From contig NZ_CP029820.1 in NCBI RefSeq assembly GCF_003226855.1, forward strand, positions 359,501 to 423,500: a stretch of 64,000 bases of DNA. The letters run 5' to 3'. Position 1 is the first letter of the stretch; every line of letters starts with the position of its first letter. This stretch comes from Blattabacterium sp. (Cryptocercus kyebangensis) (GTDB lineage: Bacteria > Bacteroidota > Bacteroidia > Flavobacteriales > Blattabacteriaceae). Made by a program: the position numbers and the translations under genes. Below, in pieces: positions 3,976 through 57,299 of this stretch. The notes under the pieces were generated by a model. That model searched no databases. It was not told where the DNA came from and was given only the letters and a program-made list of their open reading frames with translations.

Positions 3976-5298
3976 ATGAGTTACCTAGTTTCCATAGTAG
4001 GACGTACGAATGTAGGAAAATCAACTTTATTTAACCGTATTATAGGACAAAGGAAAGCTATAGTTCATGGTCAAAGTGGAGTAACGAGAGATAGAATTTA
4101 TGGAGATTCTGAATGGAATGGAGTCCATTTTTCTGTAGTAGATACAGGAGGTTATAATCCCCCCAATAATACAGATATAATCGATACAGAAATCAGAAAG
4201 CAAATTTTAATAGCTGTAAAAGATTCTGATGCCATTTTGTTTTTAGTGGATATGAAAATAGGTCTACTCGATCTAGATATCGAAATTTCTCAAATACTTA
4301 GAAGATGTAAAAAATCAATTTTATTAGTAGTGAATAAAGTAGATAACGGAAAAAATCTATATCATGATACAGATTTTTTCCGTTTAGGATTCAATAACTA
4401 TTATTGTATATCCGCTATAAATGGAAGTGGAACTGGAGAAATGTTGGATAGATTAATAGAAATATTGAAAGGATTAGTAGAAAAAAAAGTAGAGAAAGGG
4501 GAGGGATTTCCACGTTTTTCTGTAATTGGGCGACCCAACGTAGGAAAATCTACATTAATTAACTCTTTTTTAGATAAAAACCATCATATTGTCACAAATA
4601 TTTCTGGTACCACAAGAGATAGTCTAGATGTTTTCTACAAAAAATTTGGATATAAATGTATTTTAGTTGATACCCCTGGAGTTAGAAAAAAATCAAAAAT
4701 AAGTGAAAGTATTGAATTTTATTCTACTATGAAAACGGTGAGAACTATTAAATACACAGATATTTGTTTTTTGATGGTAGATGCGGTTCGTGGATGGGAA
4801 TCACAAGATAGAAATATTTTTAGATTGATTGAAAAAAATCAAAAAGGGGTCATAATTCTTATTAACAAATGGGATTTATTACATAATAATAAAAATTTTT
4901 CTATACAGAAAAATTTCGAAATTTTTATTAAAAAAAACATTGCTCCATTTGACAATGTTCCCATACTTTTTATATCGGCTAAAAATAAGGATGGAATATA
5001 TAATATTATACCCATAGCTTATCATATTTTTAGAAAACGAAAAGAAAGATTAAAAACGAATTTATTAAATAGAGTTATGTTACCCCTTTTTAAAAAAAAT
5101 CCTCCTCCTACTATCAAAAAAAAATTGATTAAAATCAAATATTGTACTCAATTGCCTACATATACACCAAAATTTATTTTTTTTTCTAATTACCCTCAGT
5201 ATATAAAAGAATCTTATAAAAGATTTATTGAAAATAAAATTCGTTATCACTTCGATTTCATAGGAGTTCCTATACAAATTTTTTTCAGAAAAAAATAA
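3976..5298 (+). CDS. der: Ribosome assembly GTPase Der (EngA)
   Basis: Tandem-domain GTPase needed for maturation of the 50S ribosomal subunit. The first G domain shows GRTNVGKST (residues 9-17), DTGG and NKVD. The second shows GRPNVGKST (about residue 185), DTPG and NKWD. A C-terminal KH-like domain of about 100 residues follows, rich in Lys and Ile here. The 440-residue length matches the family. ATG at 3976 puts the P-loop at the normal distance from the N-terminus. ruvA follows 48 bases downstream on the same strand and may be co-transcribed. Confidence 0.96.
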   Translation: MSYLVSIVGRTNVGKSTLFNRIIGQRKAIVHGQSGVTRDRIYGDSEWNGVHFSVVDTGGYNPPNNTDIIDTEIRKQILIAVKDSDAILFLVDMKIGLLDLDIEISQILRRCKKSILLVVNKVDNGKNLYHDTDFFRLGFNNYYCISAINGSGTGEMLDRLIEILKGLVEKKVEKGEGFPRFSVIGRPNVGKSTLINSFLDKNHHIVTNISGTTRDSLDVFYKKFGYKCILVDTPGVRKKSKISESIEFYSTMKTVRTIKYTDICFLMVDAVRGWESQDRNIFRLIEKNQKGVIILINKWDLLHNNKNFSIQKNFEIFIKKNIAPFDNVPILFISAKNKDGIYNIIPIAYHIFRKRKERLKTNLLNRVMLPLFKKNPPPTIKKKLIKIKYCTQLPTYTPKFIFFSNYPQYIKESYKRFIENKIRYHFDFIGVPIQIFFRKK

Positions 5299-6061: not shown

Positions 6062-8389
6062 ATGAAAATTTTTTATCCATCAATTATAGTCATTCTTTTT
6101 ATATTATCTATTTTCGATCTTATTGTAGGGTTGATTAACGATGCCGTAAATTTTCTTAATTCCGCTATTGGATCTAAAGTAGCTTCTCGTAAGACTATCA
6201 TTATTTTTGCTAGTTTAGGTATTCTATTGGGAGCTTTTTTATCTAGTAGAATGATGGAAATAGCAAGAAAAGGTATTTTTGATCCGTCTTATTTTTATTT
6301 TTCAGATCTTATTTTTATTTTTTTAGCAGTTATGATATCCGATATTATTTTATTGGATATTTTTAACACTTTAGGGTTGCCAACCTCTACTACAGTATCA
6401 ATGGTTTTTTGTTTATTAGGAGGAGCCTTCAGTATTTCCATGATAAAAATTTCTTCTCCATTAAGTAATGAACCCCTTCATCATTTAAGTCAATACATTA
6501 AAGCGGAAAAAACATTGACAATTGGTATAGGAATTTTTTTATCTATTATAATTTCTTTTTTTTCTGGTGCCTTTATTCACTATTTTATACGGATTTTATT
6601 AAGTTTTGAATATAAAAGTAGATTAAAATATGCAGGAGTTATATGGGCCTCTATTTCATTGAGTAGTATGACTTATTTTTTGATTGTAAGAGGACTTCAT
6701 AGTACTTTACAAGGATCCATGTATGATAATTTATCAGTACAATCCCTATTGATTCCACATTTTATAAAGTGGATCCATCATAATTTTTTTTTCTTTTTTA
6801 TTTTATTATTTACAACTTGGATTATTGTGTCTAAAGTATTTGTTTTTTTAGGATATAATATATTAAAATTTGTCGTATTATATGGAACATTTTCTTTAGC
6901 TATGGCTTTTGCAGGAAATGATCTAGTAAATTTCATAGGAGTTCCTATAGCTAGTATACAATCTTATAACATATGGAAAGAAGCAGGAAGTCCTCCTGCA
7001 GAAGGATTCAATATGAAAAGTTTATCTGGAAATGTACAGATTCCATCTTTTGTTCTGATATTTTCAGGTATAATTATGATATTAACACTTTGGTTTTCTA
7101 AAAAAACAAAAACCATTACCAGCACGGAAATTAATTTAAGTAGACAAAATGAAGGAAACGAAAAATTTTTATCCAATTCTTTTGCAAGAGGAATCGTTCG
7201 GTTTTTTTTATTTTTCGGAAATAAATTTTTTAATTTATTTCCGAAACGATTTCTTGTTAAAATAGAAAAAAATTTTAAGAAAAAAATCCAAAAAGAGGAA
7301 AATATTTCTGAGGAAAATATTGCTTTTGATCTGGTTAGAGCTTCTTCTAATTTAACTATATCTAGTATATTGATCTCTATAGCTACCGTTAAGAATCTTC
7401 CCCTATCTACTACTTTTGTCACTTTTATGGTCTCTATGGGGACTTCTCTTTCAGATAGAGCGTGGGATAGAGAAAGTGCTGTTTATCGAATATCAGGAGT
7501 TTTAAAAGTTATAAGGGGATGGTTTTTAACAGGGGTTATAGCATTCACCATGGCAGGAATTATAGCCTATTTTTTGTATTTTATAAAGGTATGGGCACTT
7601 ATATTTTTTATTTTTTTAATGGTATTGGTTTTTTACAAAAGTTATAAAAAATATCAAAAAATACAATATCAAAAAGTTGAAGAGGAAAAAACTATTTTTG
7701 GTATAATAGGATGGATAAATTTAAACAAAAGTTCCGAAAGTTCGGATATTTTAGAACCTATGCTCAAATCTATAGAACTTATTTACAAAAATAGTATAGA
7801 AGGAATTACTAAAGAAAACTTGAAACCCCTTAAAGATAGCAGAAAAAACTTTTTAAAAGTAAAAGAAAATTTTACGTATATACAGAACTCTTTGATTAGA
7901 GTTATAAAAAAAACGAGGAATAGTGACCCTATTTTTGGAAGACTTTATATACGTATATACAACAAAATTAAAGAAATATTGGAATCCGAAGATATTATTA
8001 CCAATTGCACTTTATTTCATGTAATTAATAGCCATAACCCTTTAAAATACAATCAAAAAAAGAATTTGCTTACACTTGAACATTTGATGATGGAATATTT
8101 CAGTATTCTAAAAAAAATTATTATAAATAGAAATTGTAAATATGTTAGCCATACAATAAAAATTAATATTCTAAAAAAGATTGAGGAACAAATAAATCAA
8201 CAGGTGAAGGGAATTATCCATAAAAAATATGGGACTAAAAATACATTATTAATGTTAGACGTTCTTATCCAATCAAAAAAGATTACAGAGAATATAGAAG
8301 ATCTTATCCTATTATATAAAAATTTTTTATCCCATATTTCTTCAAAAAGAGACACTTCCATTTTAGTTCTAAAAAATATAAAAATTTAA
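6062..8389 (+). CDS. Inorganic phosphate transporter, PiT family, with long C-terminal helical domain
   Basis: Inner-membrane low-affinity phosphate:cation symporter. The N-terminal part carries the duplicated PiT signature: GLINDAVNFLNSAIGSKVAS near residue 20 and AGNDLVNFIGVPIAS near residue 285, with many hydrophobic membrane segments up to about residue 520. The remaining roughly 230 residues are hydrophilic and helical, as in Bacteroidetes members of about 750 residues, where this tail is PhoU-like (family knowledge). No pstSCAB or phoU genes are nearby. The ATG at 6062 directly precedes the first membrane segment. No frame damage is seen. Substrate is inferred from family. Confidence 0.88.
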   Translation: MKIFYPSIIVILFILSIFDLIVGLINDAVNFLNSAIGSKVASRKTIIIFASLGILLGAFLSSRMMEIARKGIFDPSYFYFSDLIFIFLAVMISDIILLDIFNTLGLPTSTTVSMVFCLLGGAFSISMIKISSPLSNEPLHHLSQYIKAEKTLTIGIGIFLSIIISFFSGAFIHYFIRILLSFEYKSRLKYAGVIWASISLSSMTYFLIVRGLHSTLQGSMYDNLSVQSLLIPHFIKWIHHNFFFFFILLFTTWIIVSKVFVFLGYNILKFVVLYGTFSLAMAFAGNDLVNFIGVPIASIQSYNIWKEAGSPPAEGFNMKSLSGNVQIPSFVLIFSGIIMILTLWFSKKTKTITSTEINLSRQNEGNEKFLSNSFARGIVRFFLFFGNKFFNLFPKRFLVKIEKNFKKKIQKEENISEENIAFDLVRASSNLTISSILISIATVKNLPLSTTFVTFMVSMGTSLSDRAWDRESAVYRISGVLKVIRGWFLTGVIAFTMAGIIAYFLYFIKVWALIFFIFLMVLVFYKSYKKYQKIQYQKVEEEKTIFGIIGWINLNKSSESSDILEPMLKSIELIYKNSIEGITKENLKPLKDSRKNFLKVKENFTYIQNSLIRVIKKTRNSDPIFGRLYIRIYNKIKEILESEDIITNCTLFHVINSHNPLKYNQKKNLLTLEHLMMEYFSILKKIIINRNCKYVSHTIKINILKKIEEQINQQVKGIIHKKYGTKNTLLMLDVLIQSKKITENIEDLILLYKNFLSHISSKRDTSILVLKNIKI

Positions 8390-8838: not shown

Positions 8839-9360
8839 TTAAATTTGAAAATATAACTCTTCCAATTTTTTAAAAAAGAACTGGGGTCCTTTTCTATATA
8901 TGGAGAAAATATATTGAAATTCTTTTTCAAAAGAATTTTGAAAAAAATGATAAGGAATTAAATTTATTTTTTCATTTACTTCTTTAAGTAAAAGAATACA
9001 TATTGATAGATAAAAAAAATATTTTATTAATCCTAATATACCACCTAACCATTTTTCAATAGGTTGTATCCATGTAATTATAAAAAAAAATTCTAGAATT
9101 TTTTTAGTTAAAAAAGCTGTTAAAATTATCAAAAAAAATGAAATTATTATAGAATAACCAATAAAAAAAGGTTCTTTATTACTCCCATTTACTTTTTTTG
9201 GTAATATTTCTGAAACTAAGTAAAATATATCGATACCTTTATATATCAATATAAAAAATATCATGAATACAAATAACTGAGACAATAACCCTTTTTTATA
9301 ACCATGATATCCACCATATAAAAGGGTAATCAGAATAATTATATCTGTGATCATCATCAT
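8839..9360 (-). CDS. CvpA-family membrane protein
   Basis: Small inner-membrane protein of the CvpA family (colicin V production related; the true role is uncertain). The 173-residue product begins with three ATG codons in a row; the first, at 9360, is taken. Four hydrophobic segments are visible (about residues 4-20, 28-48, 68-90 and 105-125), with the family's GYxxGYKKGLLSQL-like stretch after the first and WLGGILGLIKY before the last. The last 30 residues are doubtful: an overlapping minus-strand frame continues with a stretch (SPYIEKDPSSFLKNW) that resembles a CvpA tail at least as well. A length change in the nearby T-run (8941-8947) could have shifted the C-terminus. Confidence 0.72.
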   Translation of the reverse strand: MMMITDIIILITLLYGGYHGYKKGLLSQLFVFMIFFILIYKGIDIFYLVSEILPKKVNGSNKEPFFIGYSIIISFFLIILTAFLTKKILEFFFIITWIQPIEKWLGGILGLIKYFFYLSICILLLKEVNEKINLIPYHFFQNSFEKEFQYIFSIYRKGPQFFFKKLEELYFQI

Positions 9361-13417: not shown

Positions 13418-14221
13418 ATGTCAATAACTTTAGAAGAAAAATCGACCAAATATATACAAAAAAAAATCAAAGAAAAACCTGATTTTGGGATAATATTATT
13501 GGAAAATCAGTTTAATAAACTGGTAGAAGAAATAAAAAATCCTATATATATTTCTTACGAAGAAATTCCAAATTTTAAGAAAATAAATTTCTATGGAAAA
13601 TTTATTTTCGGAGAAATAGAAAATAAAAAAGTTATTTTTTCAATAGAACCATTTTATGAAAATGGAGAGATTCCTTTTTCTATTATAATTTTTAAAAATA
13701 TTGGAGTAGATAAATTAATATTGATTAATATTTCTGGAGGAGTAAATCCAAATTATAAAATGGGTGACGTAATTTTGGTAAAAGATCATATCAATCTTTT
13801 TCCAGAAAATCCTAAAATAAGAAAACTTATAGAAAAAAAGAATAAGTTTTTTTGGATTACTGAGCTATATGATCAAAAGATGCTGGAAATGGCAGAAAAT
13901 ATTTCAATGAATCATAATATAATCATACAAAAAGGGATATATGTAGCATTTCCATATCCAAATTATAAAACTTCTGCAGAACAGGCCATGATACGATCTA
14001 TGGGAGGAGATAGTGTTGGAATGAATATCATTTCATATGTAATAACAGCTAGATGTATGAATCTACGCGTTTTTTTTCTATCCATTATGGTTGAATTATG
14101 TGAAAATAATGAGTCTCCTTCCGATTCCATAAATTTTTTGACCCCCTTTTTTTATGAAACCGAAAAATCTATGCCTATTCTAATATTAATTTTCAAAGAA
14201 TTTATAAAACTTTGTTCCTAG
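13418..14221 (+). CDS. Purine nucleoside phosphorylase homologue, active site apparently lost
   Basis: The 267-residue product aligns by eye along the whole PNP (inosine/guanosine phosphorylase) fold: GVDKLILINISGGVNPNYKM, GDVILVKDHINLFPENP and GGDSVGMN are clear family blocks. Residues that make the enzyme work are changed. The phosphate loop GTGLGG is LENQFN (28-33). The RFHYYEG phosphate/ribose loop is EPFYENG (77-83) without Arg or His. GPNxET is YPNYKT (180-185), so the base-binding Glu is Lys. GMST is GMNI (201-204). The Asn/Asp of ITN/ITD is Glu (residue 226). The frame is nevertheless intact with native-looking codon use. It stands alone between murB and the convergent mrp. It may be a decaying gene, or a protein kept for another role. 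Confidence 0.75.
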   Translation: MSITLEEKSTKYIQKKIKEKPDFGIILLENQFNKLVEEIKNPIYISYEEIPNFKKINFYGKFIFGEIENKKVIFSIEPFYENGEIPFSIIIFKNIGVDKLILINISGGVNPNYKMGDVILVKDHINLFPENPKIRKLIEKKNKFFWITELYDQKMLEMAENISMNHNIIIQKGIYVAFPYPNYKTSAEQAMIRSMGGDSVGMNIISYVITARCMNLRVFFLSIMVELCENNESPSDSINFLTPFFYETEKSMPILILIFKEFIKLCS

Positions 14222-14242
14222 AATCAATTTAGTAAAAATTTT

Positions 14243-15277
14243 TTAGGGTAATTTTTTTATTATATTTTTCGTTATTTTTTCAAAAATTTTTCTTATTTGA
14301 TCGTTTTCTAAAACAACTGGGATCCCTAAATCAGAATATTCTCGTATGGTTTGTAACATAGGAATCTCTCCAAGAAAGAAAATATCCATTTTTTTGGAAA
14401 AGTTTTTCACTCCGTTTTTTCCAAAAAAATATTTTTTTTCTTGGGTTTCTTTTTCAAGAAAAAAAGACATATTTTCTATTATTCCAAGTATTGGAACTTG
14501 AATGGATCTAATACGAAACATCCCTACAGATCTATGTACATCCGATAAAGCAATTTTTTGAGGTGTACTAACGAGAATAATTCCTTTTAATGGGATATCT
14601 TGTAAAATAGATAAATGAATATCCCCTGTTCCTGGAGGTAAATCTATAATTAAAAAATCTAAGTATCCCCAATCCGTATCATGAACAAATTGTCTTAAAG
14701 CCTTAGTAGCCATTGGTCCCCTCCAAACCACAGCTTGTCCAGATTTTGAAAAAAAACCTAAAGATAGAATTTTAACTCCATAACTAGTGATAGGATTCAT
14801 TACATAAGAATTATTCTTCTTTTGTAGAAGAGAAGAATGTACCTTATCTTCTTCTAAGTTAAACATTAATGGAATGGAAGGACCATAAATATCGGCATCT
14901 AATAACCCAACATGAAACCCCATCTTTACTAAAGATACGGCTATATTGGTTGCAATCGTAGATTTTCCAACCCCTCCTTTTCCAGAAGCTACGGCTATTA
15001 TATTTTTTATCCCAGGTATTTTTTTATCAGTATTTTCTAATTTTATTTCTATTTTTAAACGTATTTTTTTTGTATCTACATCTTTATATTTTATAGCTTG
15101 TAAAATATCTTTTTTTAATGTTTTTTTTATATGCATAGTCGGATGGGATAAACTTATATGTATTCTTATTTCATCCTTAAATACATCTATTTTTTTTACT
15201 ATTCCAGACTCAATAATATTTTTTTTATTTTCAAGAATAAAAACATTTTCTAATGCTTCCGAAATTTTTTGTTTCAT
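14243..15277 (-). CDS. mrp: Mrp/ApbC-type iron-sulfur cluster carrier ATPase
   Basis: P-loop NTPase of the Mrp/NBP35 family that binds and delivers Fe-S clusters. Residues 1-80 form a MIP18/DUF59-like domain. Then comes the deviant Walker A GKGGVGKST (residues 99-107), DADIYGPSIP, and FLIIDLPPGTGDIHL. The C-terminal part has GIIENMSFF followed by KYFFGKNG. The CxxC seen in many Mrp proteins after ENM is absent, which is common in Bacteroidetes members. The 344-residue length fits. ATG at 15277. It is divergent from the phosphopantetheinyl transferase gene. Confidence 0.88.
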   Translation of the reverse strand: MKQKISEALENVFILENKKNIIESGIVKKIDVFKDEIRIHISLSHPTMHIKKTLKKDILQAIKYKDVDTKKIRLKIEIKLENTDKKIPGIKNIIAVASGKGGVGKSTIATNIAVSLVKMGFHVGLLDADIYGPSIPLMFNLEEDKVHSSLLQKKNNSYVMNPITSYGVKILSLGFFSKSGQAVVWRGPMATKALRQFVHDTDWGYLDFLIIDLPPGTGDIHLSILQDIPLKGIILVSTPQKIALSDVHRSVGMFRIRSIQVPILGIIENMSFFLEKETQEKKYFFGKNGVKNFSKKMDIFFLGEIPMLQTIREYSDLGIPVVLENDQIRKIFEKITKNIIKKLP

Positions 15278-15371
15278 ACAAAAAAATTATAATCCATATA
15301 TGGATATTTTTCACAATAGTACAAAAAAATAACTAGATTTAATTTTTATAATTTTTTTCACAAAGAAAAAT

Positions 15372-16016
15372 ATGTATTTTTTCCCTATGTTCATTTTGAA
15401 TAAATTTCATCCTCTCCATACGAAGATTATAGTTTTTAGATGCCCACATCTAAAAACTATGCTTTTGGAACAATTTCTTTTTTCTGATAAAGACAGGAAG
15501 TTTTTTTTATCTTTATCAGAAAAAAGAAAAAAAGAATTTTTAGGAGTACGTTACGCCCTAAGACATATAGGGATCAACATGAATCTTTTTTATAATGAAA
15601 AAAGAAAGCCTTTTCTTTTTCCTAAAGGAAAGTATATTTCTTTAAGTCATTCTTTTGAATTAATTGCTATAGCAATTAGTTACTATCATATAGGTATAGA
15701 TATAGAAAAATTACGAAAAGATAAAAAGATAATAAAAGTAAGAAAAAAATTCATTAGAAATGATGAATCAGTTTTTATTCACCCTAATTACGAAGAAGAT
15801 TATCTTCATATCATATGGGGAATTAAAGAAAGTTTATATAAATTAGAAGGGGGACCATCCTCAAATTTTTTAACTCACTATAGAGTTTCTCCTTTTTGCC
15901 TAAAAAAGGATTCTCGCATATCCTGTTGGATTATGAAAGATTCCTATAGTAAAAGATTTTCTGCTTTTTATAGAAAAATAGATGACCATTACCTAGTTTA
16001 TATTATAGATAAATAA
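15372..16016 (+). CDS. 4'-phosphopantetheinyl transferase superfamily protein
   Basis: Transfers the 4'-phosphopantetheine arm of CoA to a carrier protein, most likely acyl carrier protein for fatty-acid synthesis. Family motifs are present: SLSHS (residues 90-94), the Mg-binding GIDIEK (Asp110, Glu112) and WGIKESLYK (Trp149, Lys152, Glu153). The 214-residue length is Sfp-like rather than the 120-residue AcpS type. The first 160 bases of the coding region carry two perfect inverted repeats described in the findings; they do not break the frame, and LSEKRKKEFLGVRYALR just beyond matches the family. pnuC follows 12 bases downstream. Confidence 0.82.
   Translation: MYFFPMFILNKFHPLHTKIIVFRCPHLKTMLLEQFLFSDKDRKFFLSLSEKRKKEFLGVRYALRHIGINMNLFYNEKRKPFLFPKGKYISLSHSFELIAIAISYYHIGIDIEKLRKDKKIIKVRKKFIRNDESVFIHPNYEEDYLHIIWGIKESLYKLEGGPSSNFLTHYRVSPFCLKKDSRISCWIMKDSYSKRFSAFYRKIDDHYLVYIIDK
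15429..15460. repeat. Perfect inverted repeat, 14 bp arms, 4 base loop
   Basis: Left arm 15429-15442 (ATAGTTTTTAGATG) is exactly complementary to right arm 15447-15460, with CCCA as loop. It lies within codons 20-30 of the phosphopantetheinyl transferase gene. Confidence 0.95.
15474..15529. repeat. Perfect inverted repeat, 20 bp arms, 16 base loop
   Basis: Left arm 15474-15493 is exactly complementary to right arm 15510-15529 (core CTGATAAAGA / TCTTTATCAG plus flanking T/A runs). It starts 13 bases after the previous hairpin and lies in the same coding region. Confidence 0.95.
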
Positions 16017-16028
16017 ATAGAATTTAGG

Positions 16029-16655
16029 ATGAATGAATGGATAAATATGTTTTTATCCCCTTATCATAATAAGAGTTGGGGTTATATCATTTTAGAATTA
16101 ACAGCTGTAATATTTAGTATATTTAGTGTAATATTTGCACAAAGAAATAATATATGGTTATATCCAATAGGAATATTTAGTACCATTATATACAGTTATT
16201 TAACTTTTGTAAGTTTTCTTTATGGAGATTTTATCATCAATATATATTATACAGGAATGGGGTTTTATGGATGGTATGTATGGATCTACAAAAAGTATAA
16301 AAAAAAACAAAAAATTCCTATAACCTATTCCGATAAAAAAGATTATTTCTATACAGCTTTATTTTTTGTATCAACTTGTATTTTCAGTATAACGGTTTAT
16401 TCTTTAAATGGAAAACTTAAAACCAATTACGATTGGATGGATGTATTTACAACGGGGGTATTTTTTTCTGGAATGTATCAAATGGCTATGAAAAAAGTAG
16501 AAAATTGGATATTTTGGATAGTTGGAAACATAATTTCTGTTCCTCTTTATTTTTTTAAAGGTCTTATATTAACGGGTTTCTTATTTATTTTTCTAGCAGG
16601 ATTGGCCATAGTAGGTTATTTTATTTGGAAAAAAGAAGCACTAATAACTAAATAA
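16029..16655 (+). CDS. pnuC: Nicotinamide riboside / NMN transporter PnuC
   Basis: Inner-membrane facilitator for the NAD precursor nicotinamide riboside (formerly described for NMN). The 208-residue product has about seven hydrophobic segments and the Trp/Tyr-rich PnuC core: NNIWLYPIGIFSTIIYSYL, YYTGMGFYGWYVW, and MDVFTTGVFFSGMYQMAMKK followed by ENWIFWIVGNIISVPLY. The GMGFYGWY and ENWxFWI stretches are typical of the family. ATG at 16029, preceded by TTTAGG. It suggests salvage of NAD precursors from the host. It converges on hisS. Confidence 0.9.
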   Translation: MNEWINMFLSPYHNKSWGYIILELTAVIFSIFSVIFAQRNNIWLYPIGIFSTIIYSYLTFVSFLYGDFIINIYYTGMGFYGWYVWIYKKYKKKQKIPITYSDKKDYFYTALFFVSTCIFSITVYSLNGKLKTNYDWMDVFTTGVFFSGMYQMAMKKVENWIFWIVGNIISVPLYFFKGLILTGFLFIFLAGLAIVGYFIWKKEALITK

Positions 16656-16698
16656 AAGTCTATTTATTTTTATGTGTATTTTGTATTTATATGTTAAA

Positions 16699-18117
16699 TT
16701 AAGAGGAATTCTTCCTTAATTGATGAAAAAAATCATTGATATTATCATATTCTATTTCTACTCTTTTTTTTATATTTTTTACCCGTATTTTATTTTTTTC
16801 TATTTCATTTTTTCCTATACTAATAGTAAATGGAATATTATTATCGTTTGCATATCTAAATTGTTTATTTATTTTCACAGCATTAGGATATAATTGAGTG
16901 GAAATTCCTTTTTTTCTCAAAAAATTGATCATATTATATGCATATAAAACCTCTTCATCTCCAAAATTAATAAACAATACTTTTGAAGGAGCACTAGAAA
17001 TATTTTGGAATAAATTTTCTTTTATCATAGATAAATAAATTCTATCTAATCCTAAAGATACCCCGACTCCAGAAAAGTTTTTCATTCCAAAAAAACTAGA
17101 TAATTGATCATATCTTCCTCCTCCTCCAATAGAATTTGGATGACTAGATTCCTTATTATTCTTTGGTAATATTTCAAATATAGTTCCTGTATAATAATTC
17201 ATCCCTCTAGCTAAAGAAATATTCCATTCTAACTTTGTCTTTTTTAAAGAAATATTTTTTATCTTTCTAAAGATAAAGCTAAGATCTTGTATTCCTTTTT
17301 TCCCTCTTTTAGAGTATTTTAATGCAAAAGTTAAAGATTCTATTTTTTTGGAAAAATTTTCTTTCATATCAAAAAAACAGGCTATTTTTTCAAAAGATTC
17401 GGAAGAAATACCTTTACTTAGCATTTCTTTTCTTACTATATGTCTTCCCATTTTATTCCATTTATCCAAAGAAGTAGTAAAATCTTTCCATAAATTATTT
17501 TCTATTCCAGAAATTTCTACTAATCCTCCTAAGATATCTCTATGATTAATATGGATTATTATAGGAAAATTTAATTTGGTAAAAATCTCGTCACATAGTT
17601 GAATTAATTCAATTTCTGGCCATAAAGATAAGGATTCGGTTCCTATCACATCTGCATCACATTGATAAAACTCTCTAAATCTTCCTTTTTGTGGTTTATC
17701 TGCACGCCATACAGGTTGTATTTGATATCTTTTAAAAGGAAAAAAAATTTCATTTCTATGCATCACTACATAACGTACAAAAGGGATCGTTAAATCATAT
17801 CTAAGTGCTTTATTGGATATATGTTCGGTCAATAATTTTTTAAAAAGATCAACTTTATTTTCTTTTTTTTTCATCAAAAAATCTGAAATTCCTTTTTTTA
17901 AAAAATTTCCTGAATGAAGTAACCTAAACATAAGGTAATCACCTTCTTTTCCATATTTTCCAATAAGGGTAGAAATATTTTCAAAAGAAGGGGTTTCTAT
18001 AGGATAGAAACCAAAAAGTTCAAATTCATTTTTAATAATTTGAATTAAATAGTTTCTTCTATTCATTTCCATGGATGAAAAATCTCTTGTTCCTTTTGGG
18101 ATACTAGGATTTTCCAT
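16699..18117 (-). CDS. hisS: Histidine--tRNA ligase
   Basis: Class II synthetase that charges tRNA-His. The 472-residue product has motif 1 around RRNYLIQIIKNEFELFGFYP, motif 2 in FQIQPVWRADKPQKGRFREF-like sequence followed by YQCDADVIGTESL, the histidine-specific LARGMNYYTGTIFE, motif 3 in GVGVSLGLDRIYLSM, and a C-terminal anticodon-binding domain from about residue 370. ATG at 18117, with ftsZ ending 22 bases upstream on the same strand, so it may be read from the end of the dcw cluster. Confidence 0.96.
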   Translation of the reverse strand: MENPSIPKGTRDFSSMEMNRRNYLIQIIKNEFELFGFYPIETPSFENISTLIGKYGKEGDYLMFRLLHSGNFLKKGISDFLMKKKENKVDLFKKLLTEHISNKALRYDLTIPFVRYVVMHRNEIFFPFKRYQIQPVWRADKPQKGRFREFYQCDADVIGTESLSLWPEIELIQLCDEIFTKLNFPIIIHINHRDILGGLVEISGIENNLWKDFTTSLDKWNKMGRHIVRKEMLSKGISSESFEKIACFFDMKENFSKKIESLTFALKYSKRGKKGIQDLSFIFRKIKNISLKKTKLEWNISLARGMNYYTGTIFEILPKNNKESSHPNSIGGGGRYDQLSSFFGMKNFSGVGVSLGLDRIYLSMIKENLFQNISSAPSKVLFINFGDEEVLYAYNMINFLRKKGISTQLYPNAVKINKQFRYANDNNIPFTISIGKNEIEKNKIRVKNIKKRVEIEYDNINDFFHQLRKNSS

Positions 18118-29383: not shown

Positions 29384-31368
29384 TCTTCTAATTTCAGAAA
29401 TATAACTTTATTTTTTTTAAATTTATTTCCTGGTTTTACAGACTGAAAACAAACTTTTCCTATCCCTTTATATCGTATTTTTATCCCTTTATTTTCTAAT
29501 AGAGGGATAATTTCTTTTCCTGGAAAAGAAATTATATTAGGCATAATTCCTTGATCAAAAGAATGAATTAATGAAGAATTTTTTGATTCTTTAATTCTTT
29601 TTAGAAAATTAATATATACTTTATTATTATTGTTAAGATACTTTTTTCCTATTTTTGGATAAATATATCTAGCTATTTTATCAAATACTGGAACTGCTAC
29701 TTCTATTCCGTAATATCCTTTTTCTGGTTTTGAAATGACTACAATACAAGAATATTTTGGATTTTTTGCAGGAAAATATCCTACAAAAGAACTATTGTAA
29801 GATAAAGGTTTCCCTTTTATCCAGTAATCTAATTGTGTCGTTCCTGTTTTTCCTGCATAAGGATATTCTGGATGATAATATTTTTTAGCTGTTCCATTTT
29901 TTACCACTCCTTCTAGCATATTTTGAATTTTTTTTATAGATTCTTTTGACGCTATAGAAGGATTCATTACAATAGGGTTAGTATACTTTTTAATACTTTT
30001 TCCATGAAATTTAATATCTCTAATAAAAATAGGTTTAATCATTGTTCCTTTATTAGCAATAGAATTATAAAAAGTTAGAATTTGCAAAGGGGTTAGTTTT
30101 AAATTATATCCGAAAGTCATCCATGGTAATGTAATACTACTCCAATTTTTTTCCCCAGGTTTAGGAATGAAAGGTCCACTTTCCCCTGGAATATCTATTC
30201 CTATTTTTTTATCTAGTTTCCATTTTCTAAAATGTTCTATGAATTTTTTTGGGTTTTCTTTGTAATTTTCATAAATCATTTTTGCTATTCCGACATTTGA
30301 AGAATGTTCCAAAATTTGTTTTGGATTCATTTCCCTATATCCACTGTAATGACTATCTCGTATCTTTTTTCCTCTTAATTTCATAACACCACCTTTAGTA
30401 TTCACTATCATGTCCATTTCTATTTTTTTATCTTCTAAAGCGGCAAGAATAGCCATAGTTTTGAAAGTAGATCCAGGTTCACTACATTCCCATACAGAAA
30501 AATTTCTTAAATCTTCATAAGCATTTTTTTTTGTTTTCTCTAAATTAATCATAGCACTAACTTCACCACTTTTTACCTTCATAAGGATCACACATCCGTG
30601 ATCCGCATTAGAAATGGATAATTCATGAAGTAATGCATTATAAGCAATATCTTGTAAAGATATATCTATAGTAGAATAGACATCTTTTCCATCTTCTGGA
30701 TCAATTTCATTTCCTGAATTTAATGGTTTCCATATTTTAGAACTAATACGTTGTTCTAATCGTTCTCCATCTCTTCCTTTAAGATACTTACTAAAGGCTC
30801 CTTCTAATCCCGCTTTTCCCCTATGATCATCGTATCCTAAAGTCCTTTTACCTATACTTTCTAATGTATGAACTCTGAAATTTTTCTTTTCTACAATAAA
30901 ACCTCCTCGTATTTGTCCTTTATTGAAAATTGGAAAATTTCGTAATACTTTGAAATGTGGATAATCTAAATTTTTTACTAATAAAAAATATCTATTTCCC
31001 TTTTTTTTTTCGTATTGAAATTTTTTATAAAAAAAATTTCTTGGTTTTTTTAATAAAGATTCTAAAGAATTACACAAAAAGGAAATATTTTCTTGAAACA
31101 ATTTTTCTGATATAGATCTAAAATCAATATGAATATCATATCTTATGATAGACATTGCTAAAATACTGCTATCTGATGCATAAATATTTCCACGTTTTGC
31201 CTTAATTAAATTGGTTCTAATTGTTCTTTCTATAAAAGACTTTTTATATCTATCTGAAAAATTCTGAATGTAGAATAAATTAAAAATAATTAGGGATGCA
31301 ATAAAAAGGAATAAAAAACCAATTAAGTAGGATTTATACAATAAAATATATCTTTTTCTTTTCATCAT
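29380..31368 (-). CDS. ftsI: Septal penicillin-binding protein (FtsI/PBP3 type) with one PASTA domain
   Basis: Class B transpeptidase that crosslinks septal peptidoglycan. A single N-terminal membrane segment (residues 9-32) is followed by the dimerisation domain and the transpeptidase domain, with the catalytic SxxK as STFK (Ser300, Lys303), SSN (356-358) and KTGT (507-510). A PASTA-like domain fills the last 70 residues (MPNIISFPGKEIIPLLENKG). All three active-site motifs are intact. 662 residues, between ftsL and murE with 4-base overlaps on both sides. Confidence 0.95.
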   Translation of the reverse strand: MMKRKRYILLYKSYLIGFLFLFIASLIIFNLFYIQNFSDRYKKSFIERTIRTNLIKAKRGNIYASDSSILAMSIIRYDIHIDFRSISEKLFQENISFLCNSLESLLKKPRNFFYKKFQYEKKKGNRYFLLVKNLDYPHFKVLRNFPIFNKGQIRGGFIVEKKNFRVHTLESIGKRTLGYDDHRGKAGLEGAFSKYLKGRDGERLEQRISSKIWKPLNSGNEIDPEDGKDVYSTIDISLQDIAYNALLHELSISNADHGCVILMKVKSGEVSAMINLEKTKKNAYEDLRNFSVWECSEPGSTFKTMAILAALEDKKIEMDMIVNTKGGVMKLRGKKIRDSHYSGYREMNPKQILEHSSNVGIAKMIYENYKENPKKFIEHFRKWKLDKKIGIDIPGESGPFIPKPGEKNWSSITLPWMTFGYNLKLTPLQILTFYNSIANKGTMIKPIFIRDIKFHGKSIKKYTNPIVMNPSIASKESIKKIQNMLEGVVKNGTAKKYYHPEYPYAGKTGTTQLDYWIKGKPLSYNSSFVGYFPAKNPKYSCIVVISKPEKGYYGIEVAVPVFDKIARYIYPKIGKKYLNNNNKVYINFLKRIKESKNSSLIHSFDQGIMPNIISFPGKEIIPLLENKGIKIRYKGIGKVCFQSVKPGNKFKKNKVIFLKLEE

Positions 31369-38495: not shown

Positions 38496-39483
38496 ATCGA
38501 AAATGGATAATATCTCCATCTTTAATAAGATAATTTTTTCCTACTAAAAATGTTTTCCCTGCTTTTTTCGCTTTTTCTTCTGATCCATATTTTATAAAAT
38601 CTTTGTAATGAATAATTTCTGCACAAATAAATCCTTTTTTTAAATCTGTATGTATCACAGAAGCAGCTTGGTAAGCGGTACAATTATTTGGAATAGACCA
38701 AGCACGTATTTCTTCTTTTCCTATTGTAAAAAAACTTTGTAAATTTAATAATTGATATGATTTCTTGATAATCATATCAATTCCTGAAATATGATTTTTT
38801 TTCAACGATAAAACTACTAAAGTTGATTTTTCCTTTTCTACCATTTTTTTTATTTTTTTTAGATTAGGATTATTTTCCTCATCTATATTGCATACATAAA
38901 GAACAGGTTTAATTGTTAGTAACTGTAAATCATCTATGTACTTTTTTTCATTATTTTTAAATGGAAATGTTCTAATATTTTTTCCTTCTTTTAGAAAAGA
39001 AAAAATTTTTTTTAGTAGTATAGTACTTACAGATTTTTTATTTTTAGAAGTTTTTTCTAATCTCTTTTCTATCGTTTCTAGATCTTTGAATTGTAATTCT
39101 ATATCAATAATTTCTTTATCCCTAATTGGATTTATTTCCCCCTCTACATGAAGTACACGAATATCGTTAAAACAACGAATCATATGGATGATAACACTTG
39201 TTTCACGAATATGGGATAGAAATTTATTCCCTAATCCTTCTCCTTTATGTGATCCTTTAATTAATCCAGCAATATCTACTATTTTTATTTTGGATGGAAC
39301 TATTTTTTTTGGATTAATCAAGGTTTTTAATTCATACAATCTTTGATCTGGAACTTTCGTAATTCCATAATTAGGCTCTATGGTACAAAAAGGAAAATTT
39401 TTTGATAAAGCTTTAGAATTAGAAATAAGATTAAATAATGTTGATTTTCCTATATTTGGAAGACCAATAATTCCACATTTCAT
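38485..39483 (-). CDS. ychF: Ribosome-binding ATPase YchF (OLA1 family)
   Basis: Obg-related P-loop protein that prefers ATP and binds ribosomes. Motifs: CGIIGLPNIGKSTLFN (G1), DIAGLIKGSHKGEGLGNKFL (G3), NIDEEN in place of the G4 NKxD motif, which is characteristic of YchF, and a C-terminal TGS domain (AYQAASVIHTDLKKGFICAE). At 332 residues it is about 30 shorter than the usual 363-365. The loss falls in the segment between the G domain and TGS domain. Confidence 0.94.
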   Translation of the reverse strand: MKCGIIGLPNIGKSTLFNLISNSKALSKNFPFCTIEPNYGITKVPDQRLYELKTLINPKKIVPSKIKIVDIAGLIKGSHKGEGLGNKFLSHIRETSVIIHMIRCFNDIRVLHVEGEINPIRDKEIIDIELQFKDLETIEKRLEKTSKNKKSVSTILLKKIFSFLKEGKNIRTFPFKNNEKKYIDDLQLLTIKPVLYVCNIDEENNPNLKKIKKMVEKEKSTLVVLSLKKNHISGIDMIIKKSYQLLNLQSFFTIGKEEIRAWSIPNNCTAYQAASVIHTDLKKGFICAEIIHYKDFIKYGSEEKAKKAGKTFLVGKNYLIKDGDIIHFRFNL

Positions 39484-56699: not shown

Positions 56700-57240
56700 A
56701 ATATTTTTTTCGTATAAAAATTTAATTTTTCCTTAAAAAAAATAAAAATTTTATCAAAAATATGAATATAAAAGAAAGAACCAAATATAGGATATTTTTG
56801 ATTTTTATTTTTTATTGCAATTAAATACTTATCCATTCTTTTTTCTATTCTTTTAGAAGTTTCTTTATCCCATTTCCATAAAAAATACTTTTCTATTTGA
56901 TAGATTAATCAATTTTCATAATTTAAGGACGTAGAATAACCAGATTTTTCAATACCTATAGCCCAATCTTTATAATTCTTTTTCAAGAATATTGAATGAT
57001 CATTAAAAAAAACTCGAACAGATTTTTTTTTCTAAAAAATTATTTTGAAAGATCCTCATCATGATAATAAATATATCCAATCCAATTTTTACTATCTATA
57101 TCTTATCCAAAAATGATTATTTATGGATGATTCTAAAATACCTTGTCCTAATTTAATATTAATTGCTATCCAAAAATTATCTATTTCTTTATTTTTATTT
57201 CGAAAATAAAAATAAAAAGATCATCAAAAAATGAAATAAA
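56700..57240 (-). pseudogene. Decayed glucosaminidase gene (FlgJ/GH73 type)
   Basis: This 614-base space has no intact gene, but the minus strand from about 57200 to 56870 still reads, across stops and frame changes, as the endo-beta-N-acetylglucosaminidase domain: IKLGQGILESS, NNHFWI, LDWIGYIYYHDEDLSK, VRVFFNDHSIFLKK, KDWAIGIEKSGYSTSLNYEN, then LIYQIEKYFL after a TGA stop. These match in order the family blocks LAQGILESS, NNHFGIK, YYHDD, FRVYxxxxxSxxDHSxFL, and YKxWAxGLKKAGYAT. At least three stops and two frameshifts are present. A further open stretch (RIEKRMDKYLIAIKNKNQK) runs to 56700. It would have cut peptidoglycan glycan chains. Confidence 0.8.
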
Positions 57241-57299
57241 AAATTATTTCATTTTTTTCTTAAAATTACGTCTTTTTTAAAAAAGATTAATTTATAGAA

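Follow-up and report, generated by a model that had tools for sequence, protein, structure and literature searches.

Perfect inverted repeats inside a Blattabacterium transferase gene as probable products of quasipalindrome correction

Two perfect inverted repeats lie in tandem within an Sfp-type 4'-phosphopantetheinyl transferase gene of Blattabacterium, an endosymbiont of cockroaches, and the locus raises the question of whether such stems are a selected element, a product of mutation or an accident of base composition. An earlier note on this DNA had offered three possible origins, namely template-switch repair of imperfect palindromes, an RNA control element and the first step of gene loss. 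The repeats were examined here in a window of 64,000 nucleotides (the whole stretch of DNA that was analysed, with a GC content of 25.6%) from a genome of 637 kb, and in related genomes. Both repeats are probably products of biased mutation, arising by hairpin-templated quasipalindrome correction, and not a selected element.

The transferase gene and its two repeats

The open frame and family assignment claimed for the gene in the earlier note were confirmed, as the frame at 15372-16016 is intact and its product matches the Pfam family ACPS (PF01648, 4'-phosphopantetheinyl transferase superfamily) at 1.2e-6. The gene and the arms of the repeats, designated IR1 and IR2, are as follows.

15372..16016, + strand: Sfp-type 4'-phosphopantetheinyl transferase gene, intact open reading frame of 214 aa, with the ATG at 15387 as an alternative start
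15429..15442, + strand: left arm of IR1, 14 bp, perfect complement of 15447-15460
15447..15460, + strand: right arm of IR1, 14 bp, perfect complement of 15429-15442
15474..15493, + strand: left arm of IR2, 20 bp, of which the outer 6 became perfect in the window's lineage (ATT to CTT)
15510..15529, + strand: right arm of IR2, 20 bp, of which the outer 6 became perfect in the window's lineage (CGT to AGA)

The ATG equivalent to 15387 is the start in the relatives G047 and G007, and given this start the codon numbering of the transferase may move by 5. The gene was matched in 48 of 48 same-genus genomes, with the frame open in nearly all of them. The proposed first step of gene loss does not suit a transferase that is intact here, though copies look broken in G002 (L046, several stops) and G019 (L049, split frames). 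Separately, the Trp of the motif IVFRW, conserved across most of the genus, is replaced by Cys in the window, G047 and G007 (15441-15443, at the edge of the IR1 loop).

IR1 reads ATAGTTTTTAGATG-CCCA-CATCTAAAAACTAT and is encoded by the conserved codons IVFR..HLKTM, while IR2 reads TTTCTTTTTTCTGATAAAGA-16 nt-TCTTTATCAGAAAAAAGAAA and is encoded by SDKE...SLSEK. Both are present and perfect where the earlier note had placed them, with 14-bp arms around a CCCA loop and 20-bp arms around a 16-nt loop. As RNA, the 121-nt stretch holding both repeats is predicted to fold at -44.3 kcal/mol (z -9.1). Strong folding of this kind favors a selected RNA or DNA structure, by which mRNA stems or a DNA cruciform would control how the transferase message is translated, degraded or processed; the search of 14200-16700 for Rfam families returned no match, which counts against it. 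Two other identities were rejected. Over their full length the repeats match their own locus only, other matches being short AT-rich pieces, which does not fit a dispersed or mobile repeat (MITE/REP-like). An intrinsic terminator, with a GC-rich stem followed by a T run, is not reported for either repeat by the terminator scan, and A follows IR2.

Excess of closely spaced inverted repeats in the window and the genus

The null model consisted of 150 shuffles of the window in which synonymous codons were exchanged within each gene, preserving protein and codon usage. A 20-bp arm appeared in none of the 150 synonymous-codon shuffles and in none of 150 codon permutations, and the longest coding repeat in the synonymous shuffles stayed below 18 bp (n=150), compared with 20 bp in the real window. 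The IR2 arm is also the longest within the 264 kb sampled of the 637-kb genome. The 20-bp repeat thus exceeds chance. Judged by the shuffle null, arms of 14 bp are uncommon, with 6 coding arms of at least 14 bp observed and 0.41 expected per 64 kb, but these same six coding repeats in the window mean that they are not unusual within their own genome. The scan against shuffled codons that the earlier note had suggested therefore places the 20-bp arm beyond chance (0/150), while repeats of at least 14 bp prove not to be isolated in the genome. The note had put the upper limit for other inverted repeats in coding regions at 7-8 bp, which was wrong, as the window holds five more with arms of 13-15 bp, all of the same kind.

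7213..7246, + strand: 15-bp arms, coding region
4345..4384, + strand: 14-bp arms or a 19/20 bp palindrome, coding
14388..14430, - strand: 14-bp arms in an Mrp/ApbC-type gene; 15 bp in six relatives
29507..29535, - strand: 14-bp arms with a loop of 1, coding region; 15 bp in G007
38750..38782, - strand: 13-bp arms, coding region

Outside predicted genes, two adjacent AT-rich hairpins of 13-14 bp were observed at 57188-57257. The orthologs of two of the listed repeats in G047 differ from the window. At 7213-7246 both arms of the stem have changed in concert from T-A to A-T (L061:7409-7442), with no intermediate observed, and the ortholog of 4345-4384 (L061:4532-4571) is a perfect coding palindrome of 40 bp with no loop, of which the window's version differs by one mismatch.

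Coding repeats with loops of up to 20 were then counted in the 20 kb around the gene in each of 45 Blattabacterium genomes. Inverted repeats numbered 69 against 6.2 expected for arms of at least 14 bp, 30 against 1.2 for at least 16 bp and 5 against 0.1 for at least 20 bp, counts that are not independent since orthologous repeats are shared between genomes. Direct repeats, counted as a control, numbered 21 against 10, 3 against 2.8 and 0 against 0.5, respectively. Across the 264 kb sampled from the window's genome, a strong excess at loops of 0-20 gave way to a weak one at longer loops. The signal is thus specific to inverted and closely spaced repeats, with direct repeats near expectation and the excess at loops of up to 20 nt. 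Additionally, among stems of at least 13 bp, 93 perfect ones were observed against 13 in shuffled sequence, and 66 with one mismatch against about 46, so that the excess resides in perfect and not in one-mismatch stems. Three free-living relatives with 29-32% GC showed no inverted-repeat excess. Among other symbionts, an excess was found in G053 and G050 and a mild one in G055, and none in G049 and G056.

These counts bear directly on chance as an explanation, in which AT-rich codon usage and conserved amino acids would have produced long complementarity with no special process. The 25.6% GC of the window, the origin of the IR2 core in conserved SDKE and SLSEK codons and the fact that repeats of 10-11 bp are common even in shuffles all agree with it. 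The absence of 20-bp arms from synonymous shuffles, the 6 arms of at least 14 bp per window against 0.41, the lack of an excess in the free-living relatives and the near-expected direct repeats do not, and we consider chance an unlikely explanation.

History of the sites and direction of change

In the tree of 45 regions, the window's genome (G000) is sister to the pair G047 and G007, with G035 next. The comparison with relatives that the earlier note had recommended showed, across the 45 genomes, that imperfect versions of the repeats exist and that the stems are not conserved. The arms of IR2 are 14 bp long in G047 and 15 bp long in G007. Since its last common ancestor with these two, G000 has acquired three substitutions in the arms, each of which makes a pair, and these bring the repeat to 20 bp. 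IR1 pairs at 14/14 positions in G000 and G047, at 12/14 in G007 and at 12/14 (plus one G-T) in G035. Most simply, this distribution suggests that IR1 was perfected before G000, G047 and G007 split, and then decayed in G007. For both repeats, an imperfect version in relatives has thus been made more perfect, as expected of a quasipalindrome.

The same sites have been perfected elsewhere in the genus. At the IR2 site, 12 genomes carry perfect repeats of 13-20 bp, no two of the same sequence, including arms of 20 bp in G033, 18 bp in G017 and G006 and 17 bp in G009. At the IR1 site, G044 carries a separately perfected repeat of 13 bp. Arms of 23 bp are found in G040, in the gene at 8839-9360. At the site orthologous to 14388-14430, G032 (L088) has perfect arms of 31 bp around a 13-nt loop within coding sequence; a single terminal branch accounts for the eight pair-making substitutions that made them, and in most relatives the arms measure 8-15 bp.

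Fold-back chimaeras in libraries or assemblies can mimic inverted repeats, and false hairpins of this origin had to be considered. IR1 is also present in the separately assembled G047, the IR2 core recurs in both G047 and G007, the frame is open and differing versions are seen across many assemblies, all of which makes an artefact extremely improbable.

The direction of change was assessed on terminal branches with parsimony parents, by relocating the same substitutions to matched sites. Stems of at least 14 bp were gained 12 times, against a mean of 2.9 and a maximum of 7 with relocated substitutions (30 runs), and stems of at least 12 bp that had accumulated three or more substitutions in their arms numbered 14, against 1.3 and a maximum of 4 (40 runs). 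Pair-making substitutions thus exceed random placement, another mark of quasipalindrome correction. Most of the arm changes alter the protein, with 69 of 91 arm codon changes (76%) being nonsynonymous compared with 53% elsewhere, a surplus that may come in part from codons hit twice. The arms did not show a raised substitution rate (0.076, against 0.071 in the flanks). Nor were one-sided conversion tracts evident, as 5 of 18 multi-change stems were one-sided against 6.3 expected at random, although long branches may merge several events. In IR2 the three fixed pairs switch from arm to arm, which requires two or more events for this repeat, and the length of the branches makes sequential point mutations possible.

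The branch test and the mismatches also bear on a selected structure. Losses of stems of at least 14 bp on terminal branches numbered 28 against 43.6 with relocated substitutions, as selection would predict; the deficit is compatible with selection, with constraint on the protein and with repeated correction alike. A maintained RNA stem should tolerate coding-strand G-U mismatches more than A-C mismatches. IR1 alone agrees with this expectation, being richer in G-U than in A-C genus-wide (54 against 17), whereas the mismatches of IR2 are mostly A-C (69) with few G-U (8), and its core is unconserved, with 7 to 14 pairs among 43 genomes. Across all stems the two classes are similar (942 G-U, 918 A-C), one-mismatch stems have a G-U to A-C ratio of 22:9 compared with 35:11 in codon shuffles, and the mismatches repaired on branches comprised 11 G-U, 10 A-C and 56 others. 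Many unrelated genes carry similar stems. Altogether, unconserved stems, G-U mismatches no higher than the codon baseline, arm changes that mostly affect the protein and the empty Rfam search speak against the RNA control element suggested in the earlier note, and a selected RNA or DNA structure appears quite unlikely.

Probable quasipalindrome correction, repair nucleases and known systems

Among the three origins first suggested, template-switch repair of imperfect palindromes is the best fit, given the genus excess, the little or no excess of direct repeats, the imperfect versions in relatives and the surplus of pair-making changes; its single-event version gained no support from the sides of the changes, which were random. 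Under hairpin-templated correction, conserved codons in an AT-rich genus would happen to yield imperfect inverted repeats, and a stretch that becomes single-stranded during replication or repair would fold back on itself. Mismatched bases of one arm could then be rewritten from the partner arm, by template switching or by mismatch repair in the hairpin. Over time, pairs would be perfected in either arm, altering the protein, and would then decay again. One template switch would be expected to alter a tract in only one of the arms, and with random sides observed the molecular step is one that we can only infer; long branches may have fused several events into one, or extruded hairpins may have had their mismatches repaired one at a time.

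Lost nucleases might contribute to the strength of such correction. In E. coli, recruitment of ExoI reportedly aborts template switching. The window's genome retains RecA and MutS, but searches in it for RecJ, ExoI, SbcD and the large subunit of ExoVII came back empty. RecJ was not found in any of 49 genus members and is present in most free-living relatives, G054 and G058, and ExoVII gave no match over the cut-off in any of the 49 Blattabacterium genomes. Neither loss qualified as the cause. For RecJ the link is loose, as G049 and G056 lack the enzyme and show no excess and G058 has it and shows a mild one; ExoVII is likewise absent from the free-living controls G063, G088 and G072, in which no excess was seen. 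With the comparison among symbionts mixed, a link between nuclease loss and correction is no more than a hypothesis. It is tentatively conceivable that hairpin-templated correction has been a lasting, genus-wide force in Blattabacterium, recurrently rewriting coding hot spots (with arms of up to 31 bp) and strengthened by the loss of nucleases that abort fold-back.

Changes in both arms of perfect stems are usually taken as proof of a functional RNA. Here, such a pattern seems due to mutation alone in coding DNA, where it alters proteins. The 49 sequenced genomes and their recurrent hot spots form a natural long-term record of quasipalindrome correction, and the genus is suited to asking whether the loss of repair nucleases in endosymbionts sets the strength of correction.

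The process is of a known kind, and the Blattabacterium case is a striking new instance of it. Quasipalindrome-perfecting mutations have been described in organisms ranging from bacteria to humans (PMC6357072), and the creation of perfect stems by template switching is known from RNA genes (PMC8794818). In the E. coli thyA and lacZ quasipalindrome reporters (PMC6357072, PMC7202029), as here, short-loop imperfect repeats gain in perfection, with the new bases dictated by the partner arm; unlike in these reporters, the present case rests on phylogenetic inference for an endosymbiont that is not in culture, changes affect both arms and single events are not resolved. Homogenisation of inverted-repeat arms within coding genes of yeast (PMC8604942) likewise involves multi-base arm changes that are often nonsynonymous and recur in parallel, but the yeast events were placed on branches between close strains, whereas the Blattabacterium branches are long and the sides mixed. 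Surveys of inverted repeats also report genome-wide abundance, and in one of them Blattabacterium is an outlier in inverted-repeat density (PMC10434271); such surveys are single-genome counts, whereas orthologous sites across 45 genomes, a codon-preserving null and a direct-repeat control were used here. Finally, the coding palindromes of Nematomorpha mitochondria (PMC6649704) are, like those described here, perfect inverted repeats within open protein-coding genes, reaching up to 284 bp compared with arms of up to 20 bp in the window and 31 bp in G032.
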